A stretch of DNA of 34,787 nt, taken from assembly GCA_022823055.1 (NCBI GenBank), contig JAJDXX010000064.1, positions 1 through 34,787 on the forward strand, written 5' to 3'. The notes under the pieces are model-generated. The model was not told the origin of the DNA. It saw only the letters and a program-made list of their open reading frames with translations, and did not search any database. The translations under genes were made by a program, and so were the position numbers. The stretch comes from Candidatus Binatia bacterium (lineage in GTDB: Bacteria > Desulfobacterota > Binatia > UBA9968 > JAJDTQ01). Shown in pieces: positions 18,595 to 34,787 of the stretch. Position 1 is the stretch's first letter; each line of letters starts with the position of its first letter.

Positions 18595-19644
18595 CTACCC
18601 GTCGAATCTCCTGCCATTCAGTGTGCGCTCGATCCGGTCAAGCGACGCCAGGATGTCGTCGAAGTCAGGCGGGGGTCCGAAGATCATGGCGGTCGTGTTG
18701 GCGTAATCGCGTCGGAGGGCGTCAACCATGCCTCCTGTCGGCGCGATTGCGAATGTGCCAGGAGCGGCGGAGGCTAGATCGAAGTCGGGCCGGTCGAAGA
18801 ACATGCGGGCGTGTCGCACACAGTCCGCCCCGAGGTCGATGTCTTCCAATGCGGCGTTGCCGACGGTCGAACCGAGCAGGCAATGCAAATCGTAGTAGTG
18901 ACGCGAAATGCGCTGCCCCTCGTGCCGCAGGATGCCGCGGCGCTCGTGCCAGCGGCGCAGGCCGTGAGCGATCACGATCTTGTCCCATAAGGTGCGGCCA
19001 GGCTCGATGGTGACAACGTCGTGGACGGTCAGATCGAGGTCGGGAGCCTCATCGGCGACATAAGGCCGGATCGCAACGGAGCGGTTCGGATCGATAGCAG
19101 ACTTCGCGCCGGATTCGACACGGACGGCCGGACGAACGTAAACGCTGTCGGCCGGCGCGACCGCAGGATAATGGATGAGCAAGGTCTGGCGGTCGGGATC
19201 GTCGGGGTCAATTTCCGTGCGCGCCGCCTCACCGGTGACGCCGGCAAGCTGGGCAGCGAGGGACGCATGGAGCGGACCTGTGATATAGGCCCGGCAGGCG
19301 TCGCGGATCGCGTCGAGCCTGACCCGGCGCTTCTTGTTCGACAGTCTGGCCAGGTCCTCCACTGACGCGGGTTCGCCGAGGTCGTCGCGGAAGACGGTGA
19401 TGTCGATGTCTTCCGAGAAGCGCCGGATCAATCCATGGGCCATCGAGAGGGACGTGCCGCCCTTGAAGAGGAGACGGGGTCCTCCGGCGGGGCGCTCGCG
19501 GAACAGCGCGTTCAGCGTCCAGCATACCCAGAAATCCTTCTCGACGTTGGCGACCGGTGCGCCGAGCCGGTTGGCGGTCGCGAGAAACAAGTCGAGGCGG
19601 TCGCGGGGCGGCGCAGCAATGACCCCTCGATATGCGGCGGTCAT
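18595..19644 (-). CDS. abiEii: AbiEii/AbiGii nucleotidyltransferase toxin
   Basis: 349-residue toxin of the AbiE type IV toxin-antitoxin/abortive-infection system. The nucleotidyltransferase core has KGGTSLS (61-67) and SEDIDI (77-82), the G-S plus D-x-D motif that binds metal and NTP. It is preceded by VEKDFWVCWTL (34-44), typical of AbiEii. LWDKIVIAHGLRRWHE further on corresponds to the conserved motif with the catalytic Lys. Related toxins (MenT type) add nucleotides to tRNA and stop translation; direct substrate here is unknown. It starts at an ATGA overlap with the AbiEi gene, so the two are coupled. Length and motifs look intact. Confidence 0.88.
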   Translation of the reverse strand: MTAAYRGVIAAPPRDRLDLFLATANRLGAPVANVEKDFWVCWTLNALFRERPAGGPRLLFKGGTSLSMAHGLIRRFSEDIDITVFRDDLGEPASVEDLARLSNKKRRVRLDAIRDACRAYITGPLHASLAAQLAGVTGEAARTEIDPDDPDRQTLLIHYPAVAPADSVYVRPAVRVESGAKSAIDPNRSVAIRPYVADEAPDLDLTVHDVVTIEPGRTLWDKIVIAHGLRRWHERRGILRHEGQRISRHYYDLHCLLGSTVGNAALEDIDLGADCVRHARMFFDRPDFDLASAAPGTFAIAPTGGMVDALRRDYANTTAMIFGPPPDFDDILASLDRIERTLNGRRFDG

Positions 19645-20309
19645 TGTCGGGCCTCGTCCTCGCCGGCATCGGCAAGCGGTTCGCGCAGGAATTCCTGCAT
19701 CCAGATCGGCAGAGCGACGAATCCCGACCAGAGATCATCGCGGATCGCCGGACCGTGGCCGGGATCGGCGAACAGGCGGCGCAGGGCCGACCGGACGCGC
19801 CGTCGTTCGGTGTCGTCGGTCAGCATGTCCTGCATCCAGTGCAGGGCCTGGACAACGCGCATGGCGGGCCGGCCGGCCCAATAAAGGCGACTTGGCGCGG
19901 CGTACCTGAAACGAATCTCCTGGTTGCCAAGCCTGATCGGTTTCAACCGCGCATCGACCACAACCTCAATGCGCGCTGGCACGGCGGTGGTCAGCCCGAG
20001 TTCGTTGGCTGCGGTCATGCCGTCTATGACAGCGCGCGCCCGGTCGCGGCGCGTGACGGCGCGGATAACAGCGCGATAGTCGGGAACGGTCGGACGGCCG
20101 GTCAACGCATTCAGCCGGGGTTTGTCGTAAAGGCCGCGGTCAATGCGGCGTAAATCGCTCCGGGCGGCAAGACGCTGAAGGGTCTTGTCGATAGCCGATC
20201 TGCTGCCAAGGTCCGCAAAATCGCCGGGTGTCCAGACCTCGTCCGGCTGAGCCGCGATCCGCGCCAGCAGCCGGGACTTGAGGTCGGAAACATGGGCCAA
20301 GGTTGTCAT
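19641..20309 (-). CDS. abiEi: AbiEi-type antitoxin with winged helix (DUF6088)
   Basis: 222 residues. The N-terminal winged helix (about 10-65) includes VWTPGDFADLGSRSAIDKTL, then LRRIDRGLYDKPR, the hallmark of AbiEi/DUF6088 antitoxins. The C-terminal domain (about 75-222) would mediate toxin neutralisation and cooperative DNA binding. AbiEi represses its own operon by binding repeats near the promoter (family knowledge), and repeated TTGTCCGAA boxes are present just upstream. The ATG lies immediately after a likely -10 box with no room for a normal leader, so the mRNA may be leaderless. First gene of the pair. Confidence 0.85.
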   Translation of the reverse strand: MTTLAHVSDLKSRLLARIAAQPDEVWTPGDFADLGSRSAIDKTLQRLAARSDLRRIDRGLYDKPRLNALTGRPTVPDYRAVIRAVTRRDRARAVIDGMTAANELGLTTAVPARIEVVVDARLKPIRLGNQEIRFRYAAPSRLYWAGRPAMRVVQALHWMQDMLTDDTERRRVRSALRRLFADPGHGPAIRDDLWSGFVALPIWMQEFLREPLADAGEDEARQ

Positions 20310-20377
20310 GTCCTAAATATGCCACATGGTTCGGACAATGCAAGGTTTGCCCGAAAAAAGTGGCAAATTTCGGACAA
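20310..20377 (-). promoter_or_regulatory. AbiE promoter and candidate AbiEi operator repeats
   Basis: On the minus strand TTGCAT (20343-20338) and CATATT (20321-20316) are spaced by 16 bases; TATTTA shifted by two is an alternative. Only 6 bases separate CATATT from the ATG. The box TTGTCCGAA occurs twice, at 20377-20369 and 20338-20330. Each is followed by a half site of an inverted pair, TGCCAC then GTGGCA. The copy nearest the gene lies inside the promoter spacer, where a bound repressor would block polymerase. Confidence 0.5.
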
Positions 20378-20458
20378 GCCGCCTAAACCGATAGCGGTCT
20401 CACACGCCTCGCAGACCGGCCACTCCTGAGCCGACTTCGAGCAGTTGCCTAACCTCAA

Positions 20459-20565
20459 TCACTGGAATCGAGACAGGCCGAACTGATGTGGCGGGTTCTT
20501 CATCCAGATGCCTTGAGAGGTCTCATGTCTGCTTCTCAGTGGTAGTCCTCGTAGTCGAGATCGAC
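20459..20565 (-). pseudogene. Remnant of a third higBA locus
   Basis: 20536-20565 encodes VDLDYEDYH-stop, the C-terminal end of a HigB toxin. After a leader, an ATG at 20503 opens MKNPPHQFGLSRFQ-stop, a HigA beginning cut off after about six residues. Nothing else of either gene remains. The ATPase stop lies 15 bases beyond the toxin end, so the ATPase gene has taken the place of higB. 20378-20458 holds no gene. Confidence 0.7.
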
Positions 20566-20579
20566 GATCTACCACCCGG

Positions 20580-21815
20580 TCAAACAACTCGCCACCACGG
20601 CACCGCAAGGACATCAGGCGCCAGCCATTCAGTCGTGTCGCCCGTATGCAGCAGCAAACCGGCCCGTACCTGTCCGCGATACTCGGCACGGAACGTACGC
20701 AGGTGCCGCGTGTCGCCCAGGCCCGGCCGCCGGCTTGCCTTGACCTCGATTGGCAGGAGTCCGTCGTCGGTTTCCAGCACGAAGTCCACTTCCTCGCCGG
20801 CCGCGGTGCGCCAGTGGAGAATCTCGGCCCGTGGGAGACGGGAGTCGCGCCACACGAGCAGGTCGTTGAGAACCAGATTCTCCAGGAAAGCGCCGGTGGG
20901 CTCTCCGCCGGCCAAGTGCAGGGCAACGCCGGTGTCGCTCCAGTAGAGCTTGGGCGCCTTCATCAAGCGCTTGGTGCGATTGACCGCGTAGGCCGGCACG
21001 CGCACCAGCAGGCAGGACGTTTCCAGGAGATTGAGGTAGCGGTGCACCGTGGCCTGCGGCAGCGCGACATCGCGTCCCAACTCCGTCTGGTTGACCGTCT
21101 GGCCGATGCGCAGGCATGCCGCGCGCATGAGCCTGCGGAAGTCCGGCAGGGCGGCCACGGAGGAGAGTTGCAACAGGTCGCGTTCCAGGTAGGTGCGGAC
21201 ATAGCCGTCGAACCAGACGGTCCGCTCCTCCTCGGTGCCGAGATGCACCGCCGGGAACGGAAAGCCGCCGCGTCGGGCCAACGGCCGCCACTCCTCGGAG
21301 TCGGAGGCGTTCTCCATGGCAACATCCCGCCACGCCGTATCCGGGGCGGCAAGCAACTGCTCCCACACCCCGCAGGTGCCCAAGCCAAGCTGCTCGCGCC
21401 GCGACATGGGCCACAGCGAAAGATGGCTGGCGCGGCCCGCCAGCGACTCGGAGACTTGTTGCATCAGCAGCAGGTTGGCCGACCCGGTCAACAGGAACTG
21501 GCCAGGACGGCGATGGCGGTCTATTTCCATCTTGACCGCGGTCAAGAGCGTAGGGGCTCGCTGCACCTCATCCAACGTAACCGGCGTCTCACCGCCCACC
21601 AACGCGAGCGGATCGCGCACGGCGGCGTCCAGTGCGTCAAAGTCGTCCAAGGAGATGAAGCGGCGCTCCCGAGACACCAACGGGCCGGCCAAAGTGCTCT
21701 TCCCTGTCTGCCGGGCACCGCTGATCACTACCGCCGGCATGGTGCGCAGACATTGATCAAGGCGGAGCCCGATCTGGCGCGGAAGAAAACCATTCATGCC
21801 ATGAATGATATCCAT
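20580..21815 (-). CDS. AAA+ ATPase with DUF4143 domain
   Basis: 411 residues. Walker A GARQTGKS at 33-40, Walker B VTLDEVQRAP at 79-88 and sensor-like LLTGSANL at 108-115 define the AAA_14 domain. A winged-helix region with LGRDVALPQATVHRYLNLLE follows. The DUF4143 part near the C-terminus has ILHWRTAAGEEVDFVLE and LLPIEVKAS, a PD-(D/E)xK nuclease-like core with E-V-D and E-x-K. Such proteins are common in mobile and defence islands; their function is poorly known. The ATG at 21815 is used; a Met at residue 7 is an alternative. Two overlapping dyads cover the start. The gene head is partly duplicated at 18539-18570. Confidence 0.85.
   Translation of the reverse strand: MDIIHGMNGFLPRQIGLRLDQCLRTMPAVVISGARQTGKSTLAGPLVSRERRFISLDDFDALDAAVRDPLALVGGETPVTLDEVQRAPTLLTAVKMEIDRHRRPGQFLLTGSANLLLMQQVSESLAGRASHLSLWPMSRREQLGLGTCGVWEQLLAAPDTAWRDVAMENASDSEEWRPLARRGGFPFPAVHLGTEEERTVWFDGYVRTYLERDLLQLSSVAALPDFRRLMRAACLRIGQTVNQTELGRDVALPQATVHRYLNLLETSCLLVRVPAYAVNRTKRLMKAPKLYWSDTGVALHLAGGEPTGAFLENLVLNDLLVWRDSRLPRAEILHWRTAAGEEVDFVLETDDGLLPIEVKASRRPGLGDTRHLRTFRAEYRGQVRAGLLLHTGDTTEWLAPDVLAVPWWRVV
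21741..21772 (-). repeat. Parent copy of the ATPase-head repeat
   Basis: This 32-base stretch of the ATPase gene (coding for about residues 14-25) recurs at 18539-18570 with two mismatches. It is the outer boundary of the segment missing from the collapsed copy. Confidence 0.7.
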
Positions 21816-22016: not shown

Positions 22017-22301
22017 ATGGAAGCGCCTCACGACAGCCAATCCACGACCACCGACGCGCTCATCGAGCGCCTCGCCCAGGCGGTGCATGCCCGGCGCATG
22101 ACGGTGCCGGCGATCCTGTTTCTCGAAGCCCACAAACCGCTGACGTCGCTGTTCCACACGGCGGCGGTGATGAGCCTGCCGATGATGCTGCCGCTGTTCG
22201 GCGCGAAGGCGCGGGAGCTGCCGGCGTTTCTCCAGTCGCGGGACAACGTGGAGCGGCTCATCCGGCGCATCGAGGAACTCGCCGGGGAAGGCGGCCGCTG
22301 A
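22017..22301 (+). CDS. Small hypothetical protein, first gene of the seven-gene membrane operon
   Basis: 94 residues from the ATG at 22017; a TTG at 21993 would add eight. A polar start leads to LIERLAQAVHARRMTVPAILF and LEAHKPLTSLFHTAAVMSLPM, an amphipathic and then hydrophobic region that may lie on or in the membrane. A charged helix DNVERLIRRIEEL ends it. The stop overlaps the next start by one base (TGATG), which ties it to the following membrane protein. No family name recognised; I infer a small subunit of the complex encoded by this operon. Confidence 0.65.
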   Translation: MEAPHDSQSTTTDALIERLAQAVHARRMTVPAILFLEAHKPLTSLFHTAAVMSLPMMLPLFGAKARELPAFLQSRDNVERLIRRIEELAGEGGR

Positions 22302-23110
22302 TGGGCGGGTTCGAGAACGCCACTCCGGGGGTGCTGGTGGTGATGGCCCTGATGATCGGGCCGGTGCTCTACTACATCCGCGTGGCGCGGCGCCGGAAGG
22401 ACCTCTACGTGCGCCGGCTGGCCGGGGTGGACGCCATCGACGAGGCCGCCGGCCGCGCGGCGGAGCTGGGACGCCCGCTGTCCTTCTCCACCGGCCTCAC
22501 CAACGTCAGCCCAGTTCTGTACGCCTGCCTCGGGGTGCTCTATTACGTGGCGCGCAAGGCGGCGCAATACCGGTCGCGCCTGCTGGTGCCGCAGAACACC
22601 CCGGAGGTCATGGCCATCGCCGAGGACGTGCTGCGGGAAGCCTACCGCGCCGAGGGCCGCTCGGCCCAGTTCGACCCGCGCAACATCCGTTTCCTCTCCG
22701 AGGAACAGTTCGCCTTCGCCGCGGGCTACATCGGGATGGTGCAGCGGGAGCGCGTGGCGGGCGCCTTTCTCTTCGGCCACTTCGCGGCGGAATCGCTGAT
22801 CCTGGCGGAGGCGGGGCAGCAGGTAGGGGCCATGCAGGTGGGCGCCTCGGTGAGCCCCGAGCAGGTGGCGTTCTTCATCGCCGCGTGCGACTACACCCTC
22901 ATCGGCGAGGAGCTGTTCGCCGCCTCGGCCTACCTCACCCGTGAGCCGGTCCAGCTCGGCAGCCTCTACGGACAGGACCGCGCCAAGCTCTTCCTGTTCC
23001 TGATGATCCTGGTCGGGGTGGGCATCGCCACTGTCAACTCCCTGTGGCCCGAACTGGGCCTCACCAACCTGGGCACGCTCATGCACCTCGGCTGGGGGTT
23101 CGGGTCGTGA
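22301..23110 (+). CDS. Membrane protein, DUF6754-like
   Basis: 269 residues. An N-terminal helix (about 10-28) is followed by RVARRRKDLYVRRLAGVDAIDEA, an Arg-rich cytosolic stretch. A central domain reads GRPLSFSTGLTNVSPVLYACL and LVPQNTPEVMAIAEDVLREAY. FLFGHFAAESLILAEAGQ and a C-terminal helix (LFLFLMILVGVGIATVNSL) complete it. The layout resembles the DUF6754 group as I remember it; this cannot be checked here. The central part could be a cytosolic ligand- or nucleotide-binding domain tethered to the membrane. Start and stop both overlap neighbours, so it is translated as part of the operon. Confidence 0.7.
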   Translation: MGGFENATPGVLVVMALMIGPVLYYIRVARRRKDLYVRRLAGVDAIDEAAGRAAELGRPLSFSTGLTNVSPVLYACLGVLYYVARKAAQYRSRLLVPQNTPEVMAIAEDVLREAYRAEGRSAQFDPRNIRFLSEEQFAFAAGYIGMVQRERVAGAFLFGHFAAESLILAEAGQQVGAMQVGASVSPEQVAFFIAACDYTLIGEELFAASAYLTREPVQLGSLYGQDRAKLFLFLMILVGVGIATVNSLWPELGLTNLGTLMHLGWGFGS

Positions 23111-24156
23111 ACGTGCGCGGGCGCCTGATCAAGCTCGTCACGTTCCTGGGCGGCATCTATTTCTTCCTGGAGTTCGTGCTGCCGGGCACCGTGTTCGGGG
23201 TCAAGATCGACACCTACCACGACCAGATCTCCAACGGCTTCATCACCGTGGGGGCCATGGCCGCGGGGCTGGGGCTCATCAACCTACTGATGCAACACGG
23301 CTCGCGCATTGTCTTCCTGCGCCGGGAGTGGCCCTACAGCCTGGCGCTGCTCTCCGGCCTGGCCATCATGATCGCCGTGACGGTCCAGGACTGGCGCGGC
23401 ACCAGCCGGGTGGCGCAAGAGGTGGCCGGCATTTCCCGGCTGGCGGACTTCGCCGGGCGCATCCGGTCGGACCACGAGGGCGCGACCGAGGGCGTACTGC
23501 CCGCGCCCGCGCGCAACCGCAGCCTGCGCGAAGCGCTGGACCGGCTGCTCGCGCGCATCGAAGACGAGGCCGGCGCCTTCGACCTTGACCGTTTCGTGCA
23601 GGGGAGCATCGACCACGGACTCGCGCGGGGCTACCTGGCGGAGGCGGGGAACCGCGCCGACGCGGCGCGCGCAGCGGCCGAACGACTCACGGTGGCCGAC
23701 GGCGCGGCCCCGGACCTTGCCGCCAACGCGGCGGTGGTGCGCGCCCTGCGCGGCCTCGCCGAGAACTGGCGCAACCTGCGCAACCTCGAGTACGAGTACT
23801 CCACGCCCAAGCACGTCTACCGGCTGCTCTTCGAAGGGCTGTTCGTCGCCCTGGGCTCGGCCATGTTCTCGCTGCTGGGTTTCTACATCGCGGCCGCGGC
23901 CTACCGCGCCTTCCGGGTGCGCTCCGCCGAATCGTCGCTCATGATGGTCGCCGCGGTGCTGGTCATGCTCGGGCAGATCCCCTTCGGCGTGTGGATCTGG
24001 TCCGGACTCCCGGACCTCCGGTTGTGGCTCCTGGAGATACCCAACTCGGCCGCGTTCCGCGCCATCACCTTCGGCGCCGGGGTGGCGGGACTGGTGATGG
24101 CGTTCCGCATGTGGTTCTCCATCGAGTCGGAGTCCTTCGACCGGGAGGAACGCTGA
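23107..24156 (+). CDS. Membrane protein with large soluble loop
   Basis: 349 residues from GTG 23107, which overlaps the previous stop as GTGA; longer starts would sit inside that gene. Three helices near the N-terminus (about 8-26, 42-62, 78-93) and three near the C-terminus (about 240-262, 276-297, 315-336) enclose a helical soluble region (about 97-235) rich in Ala, Arg and Glu. No enzyme motif is visible. LEYEYSTPKHVYRLLFEG just before the fourth helix looks like a conserved amphipathic entry. I recognise no family. Its symmetrical 3+3 topology suggests a scaffold or channel-like subunit of the operon's complex; this is inference. Confidence 0.7.
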   Translation: MNVRGRLIKLVTFLGGIYFFLEFVLPGTVFGVKIDTYHDQISNGFITVGAMAAGLGLINLLMQHGSRIVFLRREWPYSLALLSGLAIMIAVTVQDWRGTSRVAQEVAGISRLADFAGRIRSDHEGATEGVLPAPARNRSLREALDRLLARIEDEAGAFDLDRFVQGSIDHGLARGYLAEAGNRADAARAAAERLTVADGAAPDLAANAAVVRALRGLAENWRNLRNLEYEYSTPKHVYRLLFEGLFVALGSAMFSLLGFYIAAAAYRAFRVRSAESSLMMVAAVLVMLGQIPFGVWIWSGLPDLRLWLLEIPNSAAFRAITFGAGVAGLVMAFRMWFSIESESFDREER

Positions 24157-24157
24157 C

Positions 24158-25027
24158 GTGAACCTCGCCCGGCTCGACCGCCGCTGGATCTACCTGCTGG
24201 TGTTCGTGGCACTGAGCGTGCCCATCATCACCCAGTACACCGTGCAGCCGGCACGCATGAGCGACGCGGAGCGGTTCTTCGAGTTGGTGGAAGGCATCGA
24301 GGCGGCGCCCGCCCGCTATGCCTTCGTGGCCATGGACTTCGGCCCCAGCACCAAGGGCGAGAACCAGCCCCAGGCACGCGCGGTGATGGAGCATCTGATG
24401 CGCCGGCGCATCCCGGTGATCCTGTTCTCGCTCTACTACCTGGCCGAGCCCTTCCTCAAGTCCATCCCCGAGGAAGTGGCGCGCCAGCTCGAGCGCGAAC
24501 ACCCCGGCGAGACCTGGGAATACGGCCGGGACTGGATCAACCTGGGCTACCGGCCCGGAGCCGGAGTCCTGATCCAGGCCATTCCCAAGTCGGAGAACTT
24601 GGCCGAGCTGTTCGAGAAGGACGCCCGCGGCAACCGCATCTCAGAGCTGCCCGCGTTCAGCGAACTGCGCACGCTGCGCCAGATCGCCTTCCTTGCGGAG
24701 TTCACGGGACTGGTGGGGGTCTTCGACAACTACGTGCAATACTTCACCAGCAAGGACTACACGCCGGCCTTCGGCCACGGCTGCACCTCCATCACCATCC
24801 CGGAGGCGTTCATCTACCTGGACTCGGGGCAGATCCAGGGCCTGCTGGGCGGGCTGGCTGGCGCCGCATGGTACTCCGAGCTGTTGCGCAGGCGTTACCC
24901 CGAGCGCCCGGTGGACGAATCGCTGATGCTCAACACGGGGCTGGGGGTGGCCCAGCTCGTGGTCATCGCCTTCATCATCCTGGGGAATCTGGCGGGCCTG
25001 CTCGGGCGCCGAAAGGAAGGGTCCTGA
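24158..25027 (+). CDS. Membrane-anchored protein with Rossmann-like soluble domain
   Basis: 289 residues, GTG start one base after the previous stop. A signal-anchor helix (about 10-26) and a C-terminal helix (about 262-283) flank a soluble domain. In it, YAFVAMDFGPSTKGENQPQARAV (in two parts) and RRIPVILFSLYYLAEP look like alternating strand and helix of a Rossmann-type fold. GHGCTSITIPEAFIYLDSG is a striking Gly/Ser/Thr-rich motif near the end. With one helix at each end, the domain is probably outside the cytosol. No known enzyme motif is evident. It could sense or bind a ligand for the complex. Confidence 0.68.
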   Translation: MNLARLDRRWIYLLVFVALSVPIITQYTVQPARMSDAERFFELVEGIEAAPARYAFVAMDFGPSTKGENQPQARAVMEHLMRRRIPVILFSLYYLAEPFLKSIPEEVARQLEREHPGETWEYGRDWINLGYRPGAGVLIQAIPKSENLAELFEKDARGNRISELPAFSELRTLRQIAFLAEFTGLVGVFDNYVQYFTSKDYTPAFGHGCTSITIPEAFIYLDSGQIQGLLGGLAGAAWYSELLRRRYPERPVDESLMLNTGLGVAQLVVIAFIILGNLAGLLGRRKEGS

Positions 25028-25030
25028 CCC

Positions 25031-25741
25031 ATGACGAGTCAAGACGCCTGGCATGTGGCCACGGTGCTCGTCGGCGGCATCGGGACGCTCGCCATCTTCA
25101 GCTTCCTGATCAAGGAGAACCCCTTCTTCCGGGTCTTCGAGCACGTGTTCATCGGCATTGCCGCGGGTTTCGGCTTGGTGCTGGGCATCAAGAACTTCCT
25201 CTGGCCGAAGGTGCTGGTGCCGATGCTGGGCCTGGACATCGTCACCTACCCCGACGGCAGCCTTTCCCACGAGTACGACCCGCGGCTGCTGCTCTACCTC
25301 CTGCCCATGGTGTTCGGGCTGTTCTACTACTTCCTGTACTCGCGGCGGTACGCGTGGCTCGCCAAGCTGGTCATCGGCTTCTCCCTGGGGATGAGCGGAG
25401 GGCTGGCCTTCAAGGGCTTCTTCAACCAGATCATGCCCCAGGTGGTGAGCAGCTTCCGCCCCCTGGCGGTGTTCGAGAACGGCGTGCTGGCCGTGGGCGC
25501 CAGCCTGGAGAACGCGTTCTTCATCTTCACGCTGCTGGCGGTCATGTACTACTTCTTCTTCTCGTTCCGGCACGAAAACCGCGCCGCCGACGGCGTTTCC
25601 CTCTCGGGCCGCTGGCTTCTCATGGTGTGCTTCGGCGCGTTCTTCGGTTCCACGGTCATGGCGCGCACCGCCCTGCTGGTGGAGCGGGTGCAGTTCCTGC
25701 TCGTCGACTGGTACGGCGCGCTGGCGGGGCTGATCGCATGA
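25031..25741 (+). CDS. Six-helix integral membrane protein
   Basis: 236 residues with about six hydrophobic helices (8-26, 36-53, 85-103, 107-125, 160-178, 191-211) and short loops. Polar residues inside the membrane part are few. FKGFFNQIMPQVVSSFRPL (129-145 region) is a likely reentrant or periplasmic segment. It starts 3 bases after the previous stop and ends overlapping the GlmL-like gene as ATGA. Unknown family. Topology fits a permease or a membrane core subunit. Confidence 0.7.
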   Translation: MTSQDAWHVATVLVGGIGTLAIFSFLIKENPFFRVFEHVFIGIAAGFGLVLGIKNFLWPKVLVPMLGLDIVTYPDGSLSHEYDPRLLLYLLPMVFGLFYYFLYSRRYAWLAKLVIGFSLGMSGGLAFKGFFNQIMPQVVSSFRPLAVFENGVLAVGASLENAFFIFTLLAVMYYFFFSFRHENRAADGVSLSGRWLLMVCFGAFFGSTVMARTALLVERVQFLLVDWYGALAGLIA

Positions 25742-27576
25742 AGACGGACCCCGCCGCCCTGCGCACCGTGCTGGTCACGGACTGCGGCTCCACCACCACA
25801 AAGGCGCTGCTGTTCGAGAAGACCGGGGAAGGCTGGCGCCAGACGCACCGGGGCGAGGCGCCCACCACCGTGGAGCAACCGGTGGCGGACGTGACCGCCG
25901 GCGCGCTCAACGCCTTCGCCGAGGTGGAGGAGATCAGCGGACGGAAGATTCTGACGCCGGACACCGGGCAAGATGGCGGGGCGCCATTCCTCGAATCCGG
26001 CGAAGACGGTGCCCACGGCATCGACCTCTACCTCTCCACCAGCTCCGCCGGCGGCGGCTTGCAGATGACCGTGGCCGGGGTGGTGCGGCAGATGAGCGCG
26101 GAGTCCGCAGAACGGGCGGCCCTGAGCGCCGGCGCCATCGTCATGGACGCCATCTCCGCGGACGACGGACGCGAGGACCACGAGCGCATCCAGCGGCTGC
26201 GGCAACTGCGGCCCGACATCGTGCTGCTCACCGGCGGCGTGGACGGCGGCTCCCAGGAGCACGTGGTGGAGATGGCGGAGACCCTGGTGGCGGCGGCGCC
26301 GCGGCCGCGGTTCGGCGACACGCTGCGACTGCCGGTGATCTACGCGGGCAACAACGAAGCCGTGGACGACGTCCGGCGGATACTGGAGAAGACCGCGCAG
26401 ATGGCGGTGGTGGGCAACGTGCGCCCGGCTCTCGACGCCGAGAACCTCGGCCCGGCGCGGGAGGCCATCCACGAGTTCTTCCTCACCCACGTCATGAGCC
26501 ACTCGCCGGGCTACGACAAGCTGCTGCGGTGGACGCCGGTGCCGGTGATGCCCACGCCCGCGGCCGTGGGGGACATGGTGCGGGAGCACGCCGCCGGCAC
26601 CGGACAGGCGGTGCTGTGCGCGGACATCGGCGGCGCCACCACCGACGTGTTCAGCGTCTTCGAGAACCGGGGCGGCGAGCCGGCGTTCAACCGCACGGTG
26701 AGCGCCAACCTGGGCATGAGCTACTCCGTGGCCAACGTGCTGATCGAGGCCGGCGTCGAAGGCATCCGCCGTTGGCTCCCCTACGGGATCCAGCTCTCGG
26801 AGATCCGCGACCGGTTGCGCAACAAGATGATCCGGCCCACCTCGATTCCGCAGACCCTGGAGGACCTGTGGCTGGAGCAGGCGGTGTGCCGCGAGGCCCT
26901 GCGCCTGGCGCTGGTGCACCACCGCTCCCTGGCGGTGGGGCTCAGCGGCGTGCAGCAGCAACGCGGCATCGCCGACATCTTCTCGCAGACCGCGAGCGGC
27001 GCGGGCCTCGTGGACATGATGCGCCTGGACCTGGTGATCGGCTCCGGCGGCGTCCTGAGCCACGCCCCGGACCGCCTGAGCGCCGCGCTCATGATCCTGG
27101 AGGGGTTCGAGCTGCTGGGCTTCACGCAGATCGCCGTCGACTCCATCTTCATGATGCCCCACCTCGGCGTGTTCGCCTCGATCCACCCTGAAGCCGCGCG
27201 AGAGATATTCCTGCGCGACTGCCTCGTGAACGTGGCCCACGCGGTGGTGCCCGTGTTCCCGCGCAAGCGCCCGGCCGGCTCGGTGCTCGCGGAAGTGTTC
27301 GTCAACGGCGAACCCGCCGAACCCTTCAAGGCAGGCGCGCTGGAGCGCATCGACCTGAAAACCGGGACCGCCACCCGGCTCGTCGTCCGGCCCGCGCGCG
27401 GATCCATCGACGTGGGCGCCGGCCCGGGCATGCCCCTGGACCGGGAGTTCACCGCGGGCCTGTGCGGCGTCATCCTCGACGGCCGCAACCGGCCGCTTCA
27501 AACCGCTCCGTCCGTGGACGAGCAAGCGGTGGAGCGCCGGGCCGTCATGGCCGGGCTGGGGCTCATCGAATCATGA
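25738..27576 (+). CDS. GlmL/MutL-type ASKHA ATPase
   Basis: 612 residues of the actin/Hsp70/sugar-kinase superfamily, closest in layout to GlmL (MutL), the protein encoded with glutamate mutase. Phosphate-1 loop DCGSTTTK at 15-22 and phosphate-2 loop ADIGGATTDV at 295-304 are textbook; GSGG further on provides the adenosine motif. GlmL is thought to act as an ATP-dependent helper of the B12-dependent mutase. Here no mutase subunit lies nearby; instead, membrane proteins precede it and a barrel-sandwich protein follows, both overlapping by ATGA. I infer that it energises or assembles this membrane complex. Start at 25738 is set by the overlap. The family match is good; the function in this setting is open. 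Confidence 0.85.
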   Translation: MKTDPAALRTVLVTDCGSTTTKALLFEKTGEGWRQTHRGEAPTTVEQPVADVTAGALNAFAEVEEISGRKILTPDTGQDGGAPFLESGEDGAHGIDLYLSTSSAGGGLQMTVAGVVRQMSAESAERAALSAGAIVMDAISADDGREDHERIQRLRQLRPDIVLLTGGVDGGSQEHVVEMAETLVAAAPRPRFGDTLRLPVIYAGNNEAVDDVRRILEKTAQMAVVGNVRPALDAENLGPAREAIHEFFLTHVMSHSPGYDKLLRWTPVPVMPTPAAVGDMVREHAAGTGQAVLCADIGGATTDVFSVFENRGGEPAFNRTVSANLGMSYSVANVLIEAGVEGIRRWLPYGIQLSEIRDRLRNKMIRPTSIPQTLEDLWLEQAVCREALRLALVHHRSLAVGLSGVQQQRGIADIFSQTASGAGLVDMMRLDLVIGSGGVLSHAPDRLSAALMILEGFELLGFTQIAVDSIFMMPHLGVFASIHPEAAREIFLRDCLVNVAHAVVPVFPRKRPAGSVLAEVFVNGEPAEPFKAGALERIDLKTGTATRLVVRPARGSIDVGAGPGMPLDREFTAGLCGVILDGRNRPLQTAPSVDEQAVERRAVMAGLGLIES

Positions 27577-28730
27577 CCCAGGCGCTCACACCCACGCTGC
27601 AAGTGGCGGCCGAAACCGTGGTGCGGAAGACCCGCGAGCTTCCGGTGCCGGGCCGCATCCTGTGCGCCCCCGGCGACGCCGTGGCCGCCGATGCGGTGGT
27701 GGCGCGCGCGGAGCTGCCGGGCGACCTTTCCATCCTGCGCATCCCCGAGGCTCTCGGCATCGAGCCCGCCGAGGCCCTCAGGAGCCTGGCGGTGAACGAG
27801 GGCGATGCCATCGCGGAGGGAGACCTCCTGTGCGAGCACGTGGGCCTCTTCGGCCTGTTCCGCTCGCGCTTCCATGCGCCCTTGGGCGGCGCCGTCGAGT
27901 TCATCGCGCCGCGCACCGGACACGTGGGGGTGCGGCTCGCGCCGCATGCCATCGAGCTGATCGCTTATGTACCCGGCACGGTGGCCGCCGTGGACCCGGG
28001 CAAGTCCGTCACCGTCGAGAGCCAGGGAGCGTTCATCCAGGGAATCTTCGGTGTCGGCGGCGAGCGCTCCGGCCCCATCCGCATGCTCGACGGCGGTCCC
28101 AAGACGCTCCTGGGTCCCGCGAAGATCCCCGACGACGTGGCCGGCCAAGTGCTGGTCGGAGGAACGCGCCCGACACTGGAGGCCTTGCAGCGCGCCGCCG
28201 CGAACGGCGCCGCAGGCCTGGTGGTGGGCTCCATCGACGACTACGCGCTCACCGGCTACCTCGGCTACGACCTCGGCATGGCCGTCACCGGACACGAGGA
28301 CGTGGCCATGACAGTCATCGTCACCGAAGGCTTCGGCTGGCTGCCCGTGGCCGAGCGCACCCACGCCCTGTTGCGAAGTCTCGAAGGCCGCGCCGCCTCC
28401 ATCAACGGCGCCACCCAGGTGCGCGCCGGCGCGGTGCGCCCGGAGATCATCGTGGCCCGGACCGAAGAACCGGCCGGCTCCGGCGGCGGGCAGGACGCGG
28501 GGACCGGCGCCCTCTCCACGGCCGCGCCGCGGGACCCCGCGTCCGGGCTGCGCGTCGGCGCCTTCGTGCGCATCATCCGGGAGCCCCACTTCGGGGTCGA
28601 CGCGGAGATCATCGCCCTGCCAACCGAACCGCAACCCATCGAGACCGGCGCCCGCACCCGCGTGCTGGGCGCCCGGCTCCCAGACGGCACCCTCGTCACC
28701 GTGCCTCGCGCCAACGTCGAGCTGCTGTGA
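27573..28730 (+). CDS. Protein with lipoyl-like barrel-sandwich hairpins, last gene of the operon
   Basis: 385 residues, starting with ATGA overlap to the ATPase gene. The N-terminal half contains repeated beta-hairpin turns: VPGRILCAPGDAVAADAVV, LAVNEGDAIAEGDLLCEH, then FHAPLGGAVEFIAPRTGHV. This is the pattern of barrel-sandwich hybrid domains (lipoyl, RnfC, membrane-fusion types), but without the modified Lys motif. The middle (about 170-290) has a Gly-rich alpha/beta region with GLVVGSIDDYALTGYLG. An Ala/Gly linker (about 300-325) precedes a small KOW-like barrel ending in VPRANVELL. No signal peptide, so cytosolic. Likely an adaptor between the ATPase and the membrane part; unknown family. 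Confidence 0.68.
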   Translation: MTQALTPTLQVAAETVVRKTRELPVPGRILCAPGDAVAADAVVARAELPGDLSILRIPEALGIEPAEALRSLAVNEGDAIAEGDLLCEHVGLFGLFRSRFHAPLGGAVEFIAPRTGHVGVRLAPHAIELIAYVPGTVAAVDPGKSVTVESQGAFIQGIFGVGGERSGPIRMLDGGPKTLLGPAKIPDDVAGQVLVGGTRPTLEALQRAAANGAAGLVVGSIDDYALTGYLGYDLGMAVTGHEDVAMTVIVTEGFGWLPVAERTHALLRSLEGRAASINGATQVRAGAVRPEIIVARTEEPAGSGGGQDAGTGALSTAAPRDPASGLRVGAFVRIIREPHFGVDAEIIALPTEPQPIETGARTRVLGARLPDGTLVTVPRANVELL

Positions 28731-28897: not shown

Positions 28898-30745
28898 ATG
28901 CGATCGAGTCGGCTGCTGGGGGCGGTTTTGTGGGCGCTTGCGCTGGCGGCCGCGCCGGGTGCCGCGGGGGCCGTCGAGGAGACGCGCCCGAGCCACGGCA
29001 TCGCCATGCACGGCGACCTGAAGTACCCGCCGGACTTCAAGCACTTCGATTACGTGAATCCCAACGCTCCCAAGGGCGGCGCCGTCCGGCTTCAGGCCAT
29101 CGGCACCTACGACAGCTTCAATCCCTTCATCGTCAAGGGCAGCCCGGCCGCGGGGATCGGGCGCATCTACGAGACCCTGATGACCGCGTCCGCGGACGAG
29201 CCCTTCAGCGAATACGGCCTCCTGGCGGAAAGCATCACCGTCCCCAAGGACCGCTCCTGGGTGGAGTTCCGGCTGCGGCCGGAGGCGCGCTGGCACGACG
29301 GCAAGCCGGTGACCGCGGACGACGTCGTGTGGACCTTCGAGACCCTGATCACCAAGGCGGTGCCCTTCTTCCGCGGCTACTACGGCGACGTGAAGCAGGT
29401 GGAGAAGCGCGACGCGCGCACCGTGCGCTTCACGTTCAAGAGCGGCACCAACCGCGAACTGCCGCTGATCCTGGGGCAACTGATCGTGCTGCCCAAGCAC
29501 TACTGGGCGGAGCGGGACTTCACCAAGACGACCCTGGAGCCGCCCCTCGGAAGCGGTTCCTACAAGGTGGGCGCCTTCGAGCCCGGCCGGCACGTGGAGT
29601 ACGAGCGGGTGGAAGACTACTGGGGCGGGAACCTGCCCGTGAACGTGGGCCGGGACAACTTCGACCGCATCCGCTACGACTACTACCGCGACGGAACGGT
29701 GTCGGTGGAGGCGTTCAAGGCCGGCGAGTACGACTTTCGGAGCGAGAACAGCTCCAAGAACTGGGCCACCGCCTATGACTTCCCCGCGCTGAAGCAGGGG
29801 CTGGTGAAGAAGGAGGAAATCCCCCACGATCGTTCCACCGGGATGCAGGCGTTCGTGTTCAATACGCGCCGGCCGCTCTTCCAGGACCGAAAGGTGCGCC
29901 AAGCGCTGGCCTACGCTTTCGACTTCGAGTGGTCCAACCAGGCTCTCTTCTACGGGCAGTACGCGCGTTCCCGCAGCTACTTCGACAACTCGGAGCTGGC
30001 GGCCACCGGGCTGCCGGGTGCGGAAGAGCTTGCGATCCTCAAGCCCTACCGCGGGCGGGTTCCGGAGGAGGTGTTCACCCAAGCCTACGCGCCGCCGGCC
30101 ACCGACGGTTCCGGGCGCATCCGCGCCAATCTCGGTCGGGCGGCGAAGCTCTTGCGCGAGGCCGGCTGGAGCTTCGACAAGGCCGCGCGCAAGCTCACCC
30201 ACAAGGCCAGCGGCCGGACCATGGACTTCGAGATCCTGTTGGTGAGCCCGCTGTTCGAGCGCATCGTGCTGCCTTTCGCGAAGAACCTGGAGCGGCTCGG
30301 CGTCGCCGCCACCGTGCGCACGGTGGACAGCGCGCAGTACCGCCGCCGGCTCGACGACTTCGACTTCGACGTGGTCATCGGCACCTGGGGGCAGTCGCTT
30401 TCGCCCGGCAACGAGCAGCGGAACTACTGGGGCTCGGATTTCGCCGGCCGCCCCGGCAGCCGGAACCTCGTGGGCATCAAGGACCCGGTGGTGGACGCGC
30501 TGGTGGAGGGCGTCATCAACGCCGCCGACCGCAAGAGCCTGGTGGCGCACGTGCGCGCCCTGGACCGCGTACTCCAGTGGGGCCACTGGGTGATCCCCCA
30601 GTGGCACATCCCCTACGACCGCCTGGTGTACTGGGACCGCTTCGGCCGCCCCGAGGTCACTCCCACCCAAGGCGTGCAGTTCGACGCATGGTGGATCGAC
30701 CCAAAAAAGGCGGCCGAACTGGAGGCGAAGCGCAACGGGGGCTGA
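28898..30745 (+). CDS. yejA: YejA-like peptide-binding protein (family 5)
   Basis: 615 residues. The first 25 form a Sec signal peptide (basic start, ALALAAAPGAAGA) with cleavage after about Ala25. Mature sequence HGIAMHGDLKYPPDFKHFDYV followed by NPNAPKGG is the signature of the YejA branch of family 5 solute-binding proteins. W-x-EFRLRPEARWHDGKPVTADD is the usual family-5 motif. It captures peptides in the periplasm (in Escherichia coli Yej takes up peptides including microcin C). The start is fixed by AAGGAGG and the signal peptide; the frame is open upstream but codes for Arg-rich nonsense. First gene of the operon, 22 bases before the permease. Confidence 0.9.
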   Translation: MRSSRLLGAVLWALALAAAPGAAGAVEETRPSHGIAMHGDLKYPPDFKHFDYVNPNAPKGGAVRLQAIGTYDSFNPFIVKGSPAAGIGRIYETLMTASADEPFSEYGLLAESITVPKDRSWVEFRLRPEARWHDGKPVTADDVVWTFETLITKAVPFFRGYYGDVKQVEKRDARTVRFTFKSGTNRELPLILGQLIVLPKHYWAERDFTKTTLEPPLGSGSYKVGAFEPGRHVEYERVEDYWGGNLPVNVGRDNFDRIRYDYYRDGTVSVEAFKAGEYDFRSENSSKNWATAYDFPALKQGLVKKEEIPHDRSTGMQAFVFNTRRPLFQDRKVRQALAYAFDFEWSNQALFYGQYARSRSYFDNSELAATGLPGAEELAILKPYRGRVPEEVFTQAYAPPATDGSGRIRANLGRAAKLLREAGWSFDKAARKLTHKASGRTMDFEILLVSPLFERIVLPFAKNLERLGVAATVRTVDSAQYRRRLDDFDFDVVIGTWGQSLSPGNEQRNYWGSDFAGRPGSRNLVGIKDPVVDALVEGVINAADRKSLVAHVRALDRVLQWGHWVIPQWHIPYDRLVYWDRFGRPEVTPTQGVQFDAWWIDPKKAAELEAKRNGG

Positions 30746-30767
30746 GGACGAATGACGCGGTAAGCGC

Positions 30768-31883
30768 ATGTTCGCCTACATCATCCGCCGGCTGCTGCTG
30801 ATCGTCCCGACGCTGATCGGGATCATGGTGCTGAACTTCGTGATCATCCACTCGGCGCCCGGGGGGCCGGTGGAGCAGATCCTGGCGAAGCTTCAGCAGA
30901 CGGACGTGTCCGCCACCGAACGGTTCAGCGGCGGCGGCGACGAGCGCGAGGTGGGACCGTCGGCGCAGCAGTCACGGGACAGTGGCGGCGGCACCGCCGG
31001 GCGCTACCGCGGCGCCCAGGGCATCGACCCCGAGTTCATCAAAGAGATCGAGCGCCAGTTCGGCTTCGACAAGCCGGCCCACGTGCGCTTCTTCCTGATG
31101 ATGTGGAACTTCCTGCGCTTCGACTTCGGCGACAGCTTCTTCCGCGACCGCTCGGTGGTGCAACTGGTGATGGACAAACTGCCCGTGTCCATCTCCCTGG
31201 GGCTCTGGACCACGCTGCTCGTGTACCTGGTTTCGCTCCCGCTGGGGGTGGCCAAGGCCGTGCGCGACGGGACGCGCTTCGACGTGTGGACCTCCGGAGC
31301 GGTGATCGTGGGCAACGCGGTGCCGGGGTTCCTGTTCGCCATCCTGCTCATCGTGCTGTTCGCCGGCGGGCGCTACTTCGACTGGTTCCCGCTGCGCGGC
31401 CTGGTGTCCGACAACTGGAGCGAGCTGGGCTTCTGGCAGCGCATCGTCGACTACCTCTGGCACATCACCCTGCCGGTGGCGTCCATGGTCATCGGCGGCT
31501 TCGCCGGCCTCACCATGCTCACCAAGAACTCGTTCCTGGACCAGATCAACCAGCAGTACGTCATGACGGCCCGCGCCAAGGGGCTGAGCGAGCGGCGGGT
31601 GCTCTACCGGCACGTTTTCCGCAACGCCATGCTCATCGTCATCGCCGGCTTTCCCGGCGCCTTCGTCGGCATTCTGTTCACCGGCGCCCTCCTCACCGAG
31701 GTGATCTTCTCCCTGGACGGCGTCGGGCTTCTGGGGTTCGAGGCGGCCATCAACCGCGACTACCCGGTGATGTTCGGCACGCTCTATTTCTTCACGTTGC
31801 TGGGTCTGGTGATGAAGCTGGTGGAGGACCTCACCTACGTGGTGGTGGACCCGCGCATCGACTTCGAGAGCCGGGAGACCTGA
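30768..31883 (+). CDS. yejB: YejB-like peptide ABC permease
   Basis: 371 residues of the binding-protein-dependent permease family. N-terminal [19 protein letters not shown] is the typical first helix. An inserted periplasmic segment rich in Gly/Ser (about 45-85, [15 protein letters not shown]) is characteristic of YejB against OppB. The coupling loop (EAA motif) lies around [21 protein letters not shown], and about six helices are present. It forms the membrane channel with the YejE part of the next gene. The start is taken at the ATG following the binding-protein gene; no strong ribosome site is visible. Confidence 0.9.
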
Positions 31884-31916
31884 GGCGATGCTGAAGGCGG
31901 TGCCTGAGGCAAAGCG

Positions 31917-34787
31917 GTGGAGCGGGCATCGGGGCGGGCGCTGCGGAAGGGCGTGCCGTTGACGCCGCTCAACCGAAGACGCCTGCGGAACTTCCGCGCG
32001 AACCGGCGCGGGTACTGGTCGCTCGTGGTGTTCTCCGCGCTGCTGTTCATGAGCCTGTTCGCCGAGTTCATCGCCAACGACCGGCCGTTGCTGGTGCGCT
32101 ACGAGGGGAAGTTCTACACCCCGGTGCTGGTGGACTACCCCGAGACAGAGTTCGGCGGCTTCCTGGAGACCGACGCGGACTACAACGACCCCGAGGTGCA
32201 GGCGCTCATCCGGGAGCGCGGCTGGATCGTCTGGCCGCCCATTCGCTACAGCTACGACACCATCGTGTTCGGCCTGCCCACGCCGGCGCCCTCGCCGCCG
32301 AGCACGCGCAACTGGCTCGGCACCGACGACCAAGCGCGCGACGTCACCGCCCGGCTCATCTACGGCTTCCGCATCTCGGTGCTGTTCGGCCTGGTGCTGA
32401 CCCTGGTGAGCTCCGTCATCGGCGTCGGCGCGGGCGCGGTCCAGGGTTACTTCGGCGGCTGGCTCGACCTGCTCTTCCAGCGCTTTATCGAGATGTGGTC
32501 CGGGCTGCCCACCCTCTACCTGCTCATCATCCTGGCCAGCGTCGTGACCCCGAGCTTCTGGTGGCTGCTGGGCTTCATGCTGCTGTTCAGTTGGATGGCG
32601 CTGGTGGGCGTGGTGCGCGCGGAGTTCCTGCGCGCGCGCAACCTCGACTACGTGCGCGCCGCCCGCGCCCTGGGCGTGGGCAACCCGCGCATCATCGCGC
32701 GCCACGTGCTGCCCAACGCCATGGTGGCGGCGCTGACCTTCCTGCCCTTCATCACCAGCGGCGCGGTGGTGACGCTCACCGCCCTGGACTTCCTGGGCTT
32801 CGGCCTGCCGCCGGGCTCGGCGTCCCTGGGCGAGCTGCTGAAGCAGGGCAAGGACAACCTGCAGGCGCCGTGGCTCGGGTTCGCCGCCTTCTTCGTCATC
32901 GCCGTCATGCTGAGCCTGCTGGTGTTCATCGGCGAGGCGGTGCGCGATGCCTTCGACCCGCGCAAGACCTTCGCGCCAGAGTCCGCGGACGATGCCGAGG
33001 GCGTGTCCGCGGCCCTTGCGGGCGAACCCGGAGACAGCGCCGGGACCGGGGCCGCGACGGTAGTGCCGGAGGCCGCGGCAGACGCCGGAACCCGGTCCAC
33101 CACCATGGCGCAGGAGGCCGGAAGCGCCGCCGAGACCGTGTCCGGGACGGTGGCACCGGCAGCGGCGAGCCCCGCGCCCGGCGCCGTGCGCGGGGCCGGC
33201 ACCGCGCTGCTCTCCATCGACGACCTGGGGGTGCGCTTCGGCGCGGGGGCCGGCGCCGTGGAAGCGGTGGACGGGGTCTCCCTCACCATCCGCAAGGGCG
33301 AGACCGTGGCGCTGGTGGGCGAAAGCGGCTCGGGCAAGTCGGCCACGGCGCTGTCGGTCCTGCAACTCCTGCCCTACCCCGCCGCCAGCCACCCGCGCGG
33401 CAGCATCCGCTTCCAGGGGACCGAGCTGCTCGGCTCCTCTCCCCGGGACCTCCAGGAGATACGCGGCGACCGCATCGCCATGATCTTCCAGGAACCCATG
33501 ACCTCGCTCAACCCGCTGCACTCCATCGCGCGCCAGATCGGCGAGACGCTGAAGCTGCACAAGGGACTCGACGGCGCCGCGGCCACGGAGCGCACGCTGG
33601 AGCTGCTGCGGCTCGTGGGCATCGCCGAGCCCGAGCGCCGGCTGGGCGCCTACCCCCATGAGCTTTCGGGGGGACAACGACAGCGGGTGATGATCGCCAT
33701 GGCCCTGGCCAACGAGCCCGACCTGCTCATCGCGGACGAGCCCACCACCGCCCTCGACGTGACCATCCAGGCGCAGTTGCTGGAGCTTCTCGTGGACCTG
33801 CAGCGGCGCCTGGGCATGGCAATCCTGTTCATCACCCACGACATGGCCATCGTACGCCGGCTAGCCGACCGCTTGTGCATCATGCGGCGCGGCAAGATCG
33901 TGGAAGCGGGCGCCACCGCCGACGTCATGGAGCGGCCCCAGCACCCCTACACGCGCCACCTGCTGGCGGCGACCCCCAAGGGCGCCCCGACCCCTCCCGA
34001 CACGGGCGGCGCGCCGTTGGCGGCATGCGACCACCTCAAGGTCTGGTATCCCATCAAGGCGGGGATTCTCCGGCGCACGGTGGACCACGTGCGCGCCGTG
34101 GACGGCATCTCCATGGAGCTTCACCCGGGACAGACCGTGGGCGTGGTCGGCGAGAGCGGCTCGGGCAAGACCACGCTGGGGATGGCGCTGCTGCGCCTCA
34201 CCGGCAGCAACGGCTCGGTGCGCTTCGACGGGCGCGAGATCCAGGGGCTGCGCTCGCGCGCGCTGCGGCCGCTGCGGCGCGACATGCAGGTGGTGTTCCA
34301 GGACCCCTACGGCTCGCTCAACCCGCGCCTCTCAGTGGCGCAGATCATCGAGGAAGGCCTGGTGGTCCACGGGCTCGGGCGCACCGCCGAGGAGCGCGAC
34401 GCGCTCATCGTCGAGGCCCTGCGCGAAGTGGAGCTGGAGCCCGAGGCGCGCCACCGCTATCCTCACGAGTTCTCGGGAGGACAGCGCCAGCGCGTCGCCA
34501 TCGCCCGGGCCATGGTACTGAAGCCGCGGTTCGTGGTGCTGGACGAGCCCACCTCCGCCCTGGACGTGTCGGTGCAGGCACAGATCGTCGCGCTGCTGCG
34601 ACGGCTCCAGGAGCAGCACCGCTGCGCCTACCTGTTCATCAGCCACGACCTCAAGGTGGTGCGGGCCATGAGTCACCACGTCCTGGTGGTGCACCGGGGC
34701 GTGGTCGTGGAGCAGGGTCCGGCCGCGGCCATCTTCGAGGCGCCGCGGCACGAGTACACGAAGGAGCTCGTGGCCGCCGCGTTCGAC
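31917..34787 (+). CDS. Fused YejE permease - YejF tandem ABC ATPase (3' end beyond window)
   Basis: An uninterrupted frame of 957 codons to the window edge. Residues 1-350 are a YejE permease ([20 protein letters not shown], then a helix; EAA loop about 238-270). Residues 350-430 are an Ala/Gly/Thr-rich linker. The rest is YejF with two ATPase domains: Walker A GESGSGKS at 468-475 and GESGSGKT at 745-752, signatures LSGGQ at 583-587 and FSGGQ at 852-856. The frame nearly reaches the usual YejF end. The GTG at 31917 is the earliest in-frame start; GTG 31953 or TTG 31959 match the family's start better, with GGAAGG just upstream. YejE and YejF are normally separate genes. Internal initiation within the linker is possible, though no ribosome site is obvious there. 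Confidence 0.85.

Follow-up and report, generated by a model that had tools for sequence, protein, structure and literature searches.

The seven genes at positions 22017-28730 of the window, the stretch of 34,787 nucleotides of a Candidatus Binatia contig analyzed here, belong to a gene set that is new as a system, as no known machine that we could name has these parts; this claim concerns the parts and not the function. To judge from the sequences, the set very probably consists of two units, a membrane unit of g2-g5 and an ATPase unit of g6-g7, with g1 accompanying either of them. By its scores, length and position in the tree, the operon ATPase is not GlmL and forms a clade of its own. As a tentative reading, which we prefer to the alternatives weighed below, the set would encode a membrane machine resembling a transporter, together with a shared, separable ASKHA ATPase that serves it.

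Organization of the operon in the window

ORF analysis placed all seven genes on the plus strand, each overlapping or nearly touching the next. The junctions from g1 to g7 read TGATG, GTGA, a 1-base gap, a 3-base gap, ATGA and ATGA, so that coordinates and sequence confirm the original prediction of seven plus-strand genes joined by overlaps or gaps of 1-3 bases. The first gene, g1 (22017..22301), recognized as an ORF with homologues, encodes a soluble or amphipathic protein of 94 aa without known family. It is followed by ORFs g2 (22301..23110; 269 aa, DUF6754), g3 (23107..24156; 349 aa, six predicted TM helices), g4 (24158..25027; 289 aa, a Rossmann-like alpha/beta domain between two TM helices, AF2 pLDDT 92) and g5 (25031..25741; 236 aa, a polytopic membrane protein with at least five predicted helices). 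The last two are g6 (25738..27576; 612 aa, an ASKHA-type ATPase of the MutL/GlmL family) and g7 (27573..28730; 385 aa, barrel-sandwich, swivelling and KOW/SH3-like domains, AF2 pLDDT 89). Protein-level conservation of every one of the seven in further phyla shows that none is a chance ORF. The closest named relatives of g6 are 84-90% identical and come from 'Candidatus Binatia' and sponge-type 'Deltaproteobacteria' assemblies, the label 'sponge-type' being our reading of the record names.

Downstream of the operon (28898-34787) lie genes, conserved in the genus, for a peptide-binding protein of family 5 and for ABC permeases of the peptide type. A family-5 binding protein is also encoded near g1 in two other loci (L089 and L094), but no ABC genes adjoin it in those loci, and in the window the gene for the binding protein has a promoter-like site in front of it; for these reasons the peptide ABC transporter was not counted as part of the module. 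Upstream of the operon, the minus strand (18595-21815) carries genes for an AbiEii-type nucleotidyltransferase, a partner upstream of the nucleotidyltransferase gene (222 aa, possibly an antitoxin) and a DUF4143 AAA protein.

Conservation across phyla

Homologous loci were collected via g6, giving a sample of 80 named loci. All seven homologues occurred together in 46 of these, in only two orders: 31 were of type B (g1-g6-g7-g2-g3-g4-g5) and 14 of type A, the order g1-g7 of the window, while one locus held a doubled set. A dedicated set with conserved order, as originally proposed, is thus what we find. Most of the loci with fewer genes were cut by contig ends or had an unlinked g6. According to the record titles, the set is present in Binatota, other 'Deltaproteobacteria', Bdellovibrionales, Nitrospira, Latescibacteria, Gemmatimonadetes, Planctomycetota and an 'Eubacteriales' assembly; in a genome from the same phylum as the latter (L228) the type A order was observed.

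The homologues were not scattered either, an outcome that would have spoken against a dedicated complex. Where g6 was unlinked, g2 (DUF6754) was found elsewhere in 9 and g7 in 10 of the 12 genomes. A survey of 193 Binatota genomes detected g7, either full-length or split, in 15, every one of which also contained DUF6754, and one further genome gave a fragment match only. Where bacterial operons are compact, genes without a common function can end up in a single transcription unit; with the same set retained in two orders over many phyla, and co-occurring even when unlinked, we give this explanation almost no credence.

The membrane proteins

TM helices were predicted in each of g2, g3, g4 and g5, in agreement with the four membrane proteins of the original prediction. 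Topology was derived from hydropathy and the positive-inside rule, a simple method. In a Pfam search g1, g3, g4, g5 and g7 had no family match. ORF g2 matched DUF6754 (PF20539) at 1.9e-84 with 283 bits over profile positions 13-250 of 257, above the gathering score, and is therefore a full member of a family without assigned function. Its DUF6754 domain of about 200 residues is predicted to be cytoplasmic and is flanked by two TM helices, while the g2 homologues of type B loci have an added signal-like N-terminus and an FN3-like outer region (the fn3 match being weak, 0.02). For g3, a loop of 151 residues is predicted outside; the type B homologues (about 215 aa) are without this loop. The g4 domain is likewise predicted to lie outside the membrane, and its confident AF2 model is Rossmann-like. 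Foldseek and VIA searches with this domain gave generic Rossmann matches only (best Z 9.6) and no specific homologue, and no relationship was detectable between the g2 and g4 domains. Profile searches against PDB sequences with g2, g4, g6 and g7 returned nothing convincing. For g2-g5, Pfam revealed no homologue of known function, and the fold searches, which covered g4 among these proteins, gave no transporter-like match; neither client, cofactor nor enzyme activity was identified, and the folds point to no enzyme.

The ATPase g6 and its relation to GlmL

ORF g6 matched the Pfam family MutL (PF13941) at 1.1e-119. The entire MutL domain is common to g6 and GlmL, the accessory protein of B12-dependent glutamate mutase, and the ATP-site motifs ATDCGSTTTK, DIGGATTDV and SGGVLSHAP, which the two also share, are largely invariant among the relatives of g6. 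The description of g6 as a GlmL/MutL-type ATPase consequently holds at the level of the MutL family. It does not extend to GlmL itself: g6 scored 214.9 bits against the NCBIfam model for GlmL (NF040745), which has a cut-off of 475, and 209 bits against that for Or-4 (NF040744; cut-off 600). Or-4, a GlmL-related protein of ornithine degradation, belongs to the same ATPase superfamily branch as g6, but no OraE/OraS context was seen around g6. Its existence in NCBIfam also makes the earlier statement that GlmL is known only as a helper of glutamate mutase slightly too narrow. In the tree, 28 operon ATPases and 19 GlmL-type proteins were split by a branch with 100/100 support and a length of 5.2 changes per column. 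The operon ATPase is about 610 aa long, compared with about 460-500 aa for GlmL, and possesses a conserved C-terminal extension of about 120 residues that is absent from GlmL.

The genomic context differs as well. Genes named GlmL are placed between GlmS and GlmE (loci L196-L198), whereas the operon ATPase was never beside GlmS/GlmE in the loci examined, which answers the concern that its homologues might always sit with mutase subunits. Glutamate mutase (PF06368) was found neither in the genome of the window nor in eight congeners (nine genomes, G000-G008), extending the initial observation that no mutase is present. The same genome encodes three B12-binding domains, all on contigs other than that of the window. 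Together with the Pfam family name, these domains could be taken to mean that g6 is the displaced helper of a B12-dependent mutase encoded elsewhere in the genome, its linkage to the membrane genes being incidental. This is very improbable in view of the separate clade, the lack of PF06368 in all nine genomes of the genus, the position of true GlmL between GlmS and GlmE, and the linkage of g6 to g2-g5 and g7, which is conserved in many phyla.

The barrel-sandwich protein g7

The AF2 model of g7 comprises a barrel-sandwich domain (residues ~11-130), a swivelling beta/beta/alpha domain (~130-300) and a KOW/SH3-like domain (~323-385). The earlier barrel-sandwich label is right for the N-terminal part, because 33 of 42 relatives matched RnfC_N and 32 of 42 matched Biotin_lipoyl in Pfam. 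VIA-align with g7 listed RraA/UPF0107-like and KOW entries at Z 8-9.5; overall, the fold searches pointed to resemblance at the level of domains and to no specific homologue. The N-terminal domain is of the same type as that of RnfC/NqrA, but g7 is without the Fe-S, flavin or quinone-binding part of these proteins and carries the swivelling and KOW-like domains instead.

Two separable units

Comparison of loci and genomes shows that the membrane and ATPase genes behave as separate units. The order g2-g3-g4-g5 was kept in every locus read, while the g1 homologue adjoins g6 in type B and g2 in type A loci. Complete g2-g3-g4-g5 units number two in G197, three in G198 and two in G201, and each of these genomes has one g6 and one g7. 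G316, from the phylum of locus L103, has about ten DUF6754 copies versus four PF13941 matches, and multiple copies of g2-g5 were also present in Bacillota-like genomes. The seven genomes of the Binatota genus g25, two of which consist of a single contig, contained DUF6754 but neither g6 nor g7, and g1-g5 were found together in two fully read loci. Because this genus keeps g1-g5 without g6/g7, the ATPase is not always needed, and the constant pairing of a dedicated ATPase with the membrane unit, as looked for in a transporter, was not observed there; a stand-in ATPase may take the place of g6.

Foreign genes interrupt the set between g3 and g4 (L145), between g4 and g5 (L187) and between g5 and g6 (L034 and L149), and the tight junctions of the window are not general among homologous loci, where insertions and gaps of hundreds of bases occur. 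The initial suggestion that the coupling implies a fixed stoichiometry must be abandoned, since membrane units outnumber ATPases, genus g25 has no g6/g7 and insertions fall within the set. The genes apparently inserted within g2-g5 of L187 (3523-6172) and L145 (4507-8287), which belong to unrelated genomes, are DNA-methyltransferase or restriction-like. A divergent pair consisting of an ATPase (555 aa) and a g7-like protein (452 aa) is encoded among amino-acid metabolism genes of G316 (L233:3063-6954), and divergent ATPase/g7-like pairs of a second type exist in several Bacillota-like genomes.

These copy numbers also bear on a different role for the ATPase unit. GlmL and diol-dehydratase reactivase are reactivating factors for B12 enzymes. 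By analogy, g6/g7 could be an ATP-dependent chaperone or reactivating factor with g2-g5 as its client, which would be assembled or reset and then work without further ATP. Such a role is suggested by the kinship of g6 to GlmL, for which the role of a reactivating chaperone has been described (PMC4682846), by the single g6/g7 found for two or three membrane units and by the g1-g5 of genus g25 that do without them. Against this, the linkage conserved over many phyla exceeds the needs of a helper, and g2-g5 yielded no client, cofactor or enzyme activity. We regard the chaperone role as a serious though tentative alternative, close behind the transport-like machine.

Genes flanking the membrane units

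Around the g2-g5 units of five Bacillota-like genomes, up to two genes away, 13 of 55 genes encode peptidases, amidases or related amide hydrolases, compared with 5 of 158 genes taken from elsewhere in these genomes (p 2e-5), with categories picked after the neighbours had been seen and same-genome copies not being independent. The 13 hydrolases include TldD/PmbA (four), C26 (three), M20 (two) and one each of amidase, nitrilase, S9 and amidohydrolase, the YcdB-like gene and DUF885 having been left out of the count. With duplicates collapsed, the numbers were 9 of 51 versus 4 of 157 (p 6e-4), and counted per locus a hydrolase neighbour was present at 10 of 19 versus 3 of 16 (p 0.04). Owing to the choice of categories after inspection we treat this enrichment as a lead only; amino-acid fermenters are in any case rich in such genes, which lowers its weight, and single-copy loci in other phyla were mostly without peptidase or amidase neighbours. 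In G198, which is unrelated to the Bacillota-like set, a peptidase gene lies at most 2-3 genes from all three units (two subtilases and one TldD/PmbA pair).

Other neighbours were restricted to particular groups of loci. A Memo-family protein (PF01875) is encoded downstream of g5 in about 20 loci, mostly of Nitrospira (range L052-L107, e.g. L057:14539-15837). Directly after g7 in G198 is a lone gene resembling V-type ATP synthase subunit F (L192:4355-4678; PF01990, 1.7e-15) with no further V-ATPase genes. One genome has a LolB-like lipoprotein adjoining g2, but Pfam did not confirm this assignment and no second case was found, and an outer-membrane role was dropped, as G205 has the gene set without Omp85.

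In seven type A loci (L036, L037, L039, L042, L043, L045 and L048), c10 and c11, a pair of coiled-coil proteins that are either membrane-bound or secreted, are encoded upstream of g1, joined in five of them by a hexapeptide acyltransferase (c16). The coiled-coil pair is located elsewhere on the contig in L047 and does not adjoin the operon in the window. Such neighbours before g1 in several 'deltaproteobacterial' loci, and the place of g6 in the ASKHA fold family, would agree with an envelope scaffold in which g6 acts like the actin-type ATPases MreB and PilM and is tied to the envelope via g2-g5 and the coiled-coil proteins. We consider a scaffold improbable: the coiled-coil and acyltransferase genes are missing from the window and most loci, the family of g6 is MutL and not MreB or FtsA, and up to ten membrane units per genome in peptidase-rich surroundings do not suggest one.

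A possible membrane machine

In the transport-like machine that we tentatively favor, g2-g5 would form a permease-like complex. Its membrane core would consist of g3 and g5; g4 and the FN3-like region of g2 would be exposed on the outer side, and the DUF6754 domain of g2 on the cytoplasmic side. ATP binding and hydrolysis by g6, transmitted by g7 to this DUF6754 domain, would drive or reset the membrane unit, and one g6-g7 unit, with g1, could serve more than one membrane unit. Contact between the units, the drive by ATP and a transport function are all points that we infer. The multiplied membrane units beside different catabolic genes favor a transport motor, while the absence of the ATPase unit from genus g25 fits an accessory or assembly role better than an obligate motor. 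Substrates might conceivably be peptides or amide-type compounds, with separate membrane units per substrate.

ECF transporters use a shared energy-coupling module, with ABC ATPases, to serve several S-components, each a small protein. The likeness to the present set would be one of working only, in that one energizing unit is apparently common to several membrane units; here an ASKHA ATPase is combined with a four-protein membrane unit, and Pfam showed no sequence relation. We know of no ASKHA ATPase that powers a transporter. That the set represents a new class, with exchangeable four-protein units numbering up to ten per genome, situated beside various amide hydrolases and powered by a GlmL-type ATPase and a barrel-sandwich adaptor, is conceivable but rather doubtful.

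A search of the open-access literature, with subscription journals outside its scope, returned no paper on DUF6754, PF20539 or PF13941. The gene set has no assigned function although it is found in many phyla and even in Nitrospira, a much-studied genus of nitrifiers. ATPases of the g6 type are likely misnamed after the helper of a B12 enzyme, and a corrected annotation removes false predictions of a glutamate mutase pathway. If the machine proposed here is real, it would represent a new energy-coupling principle for membranes, and the parts list and two-unit layout make testing possible.
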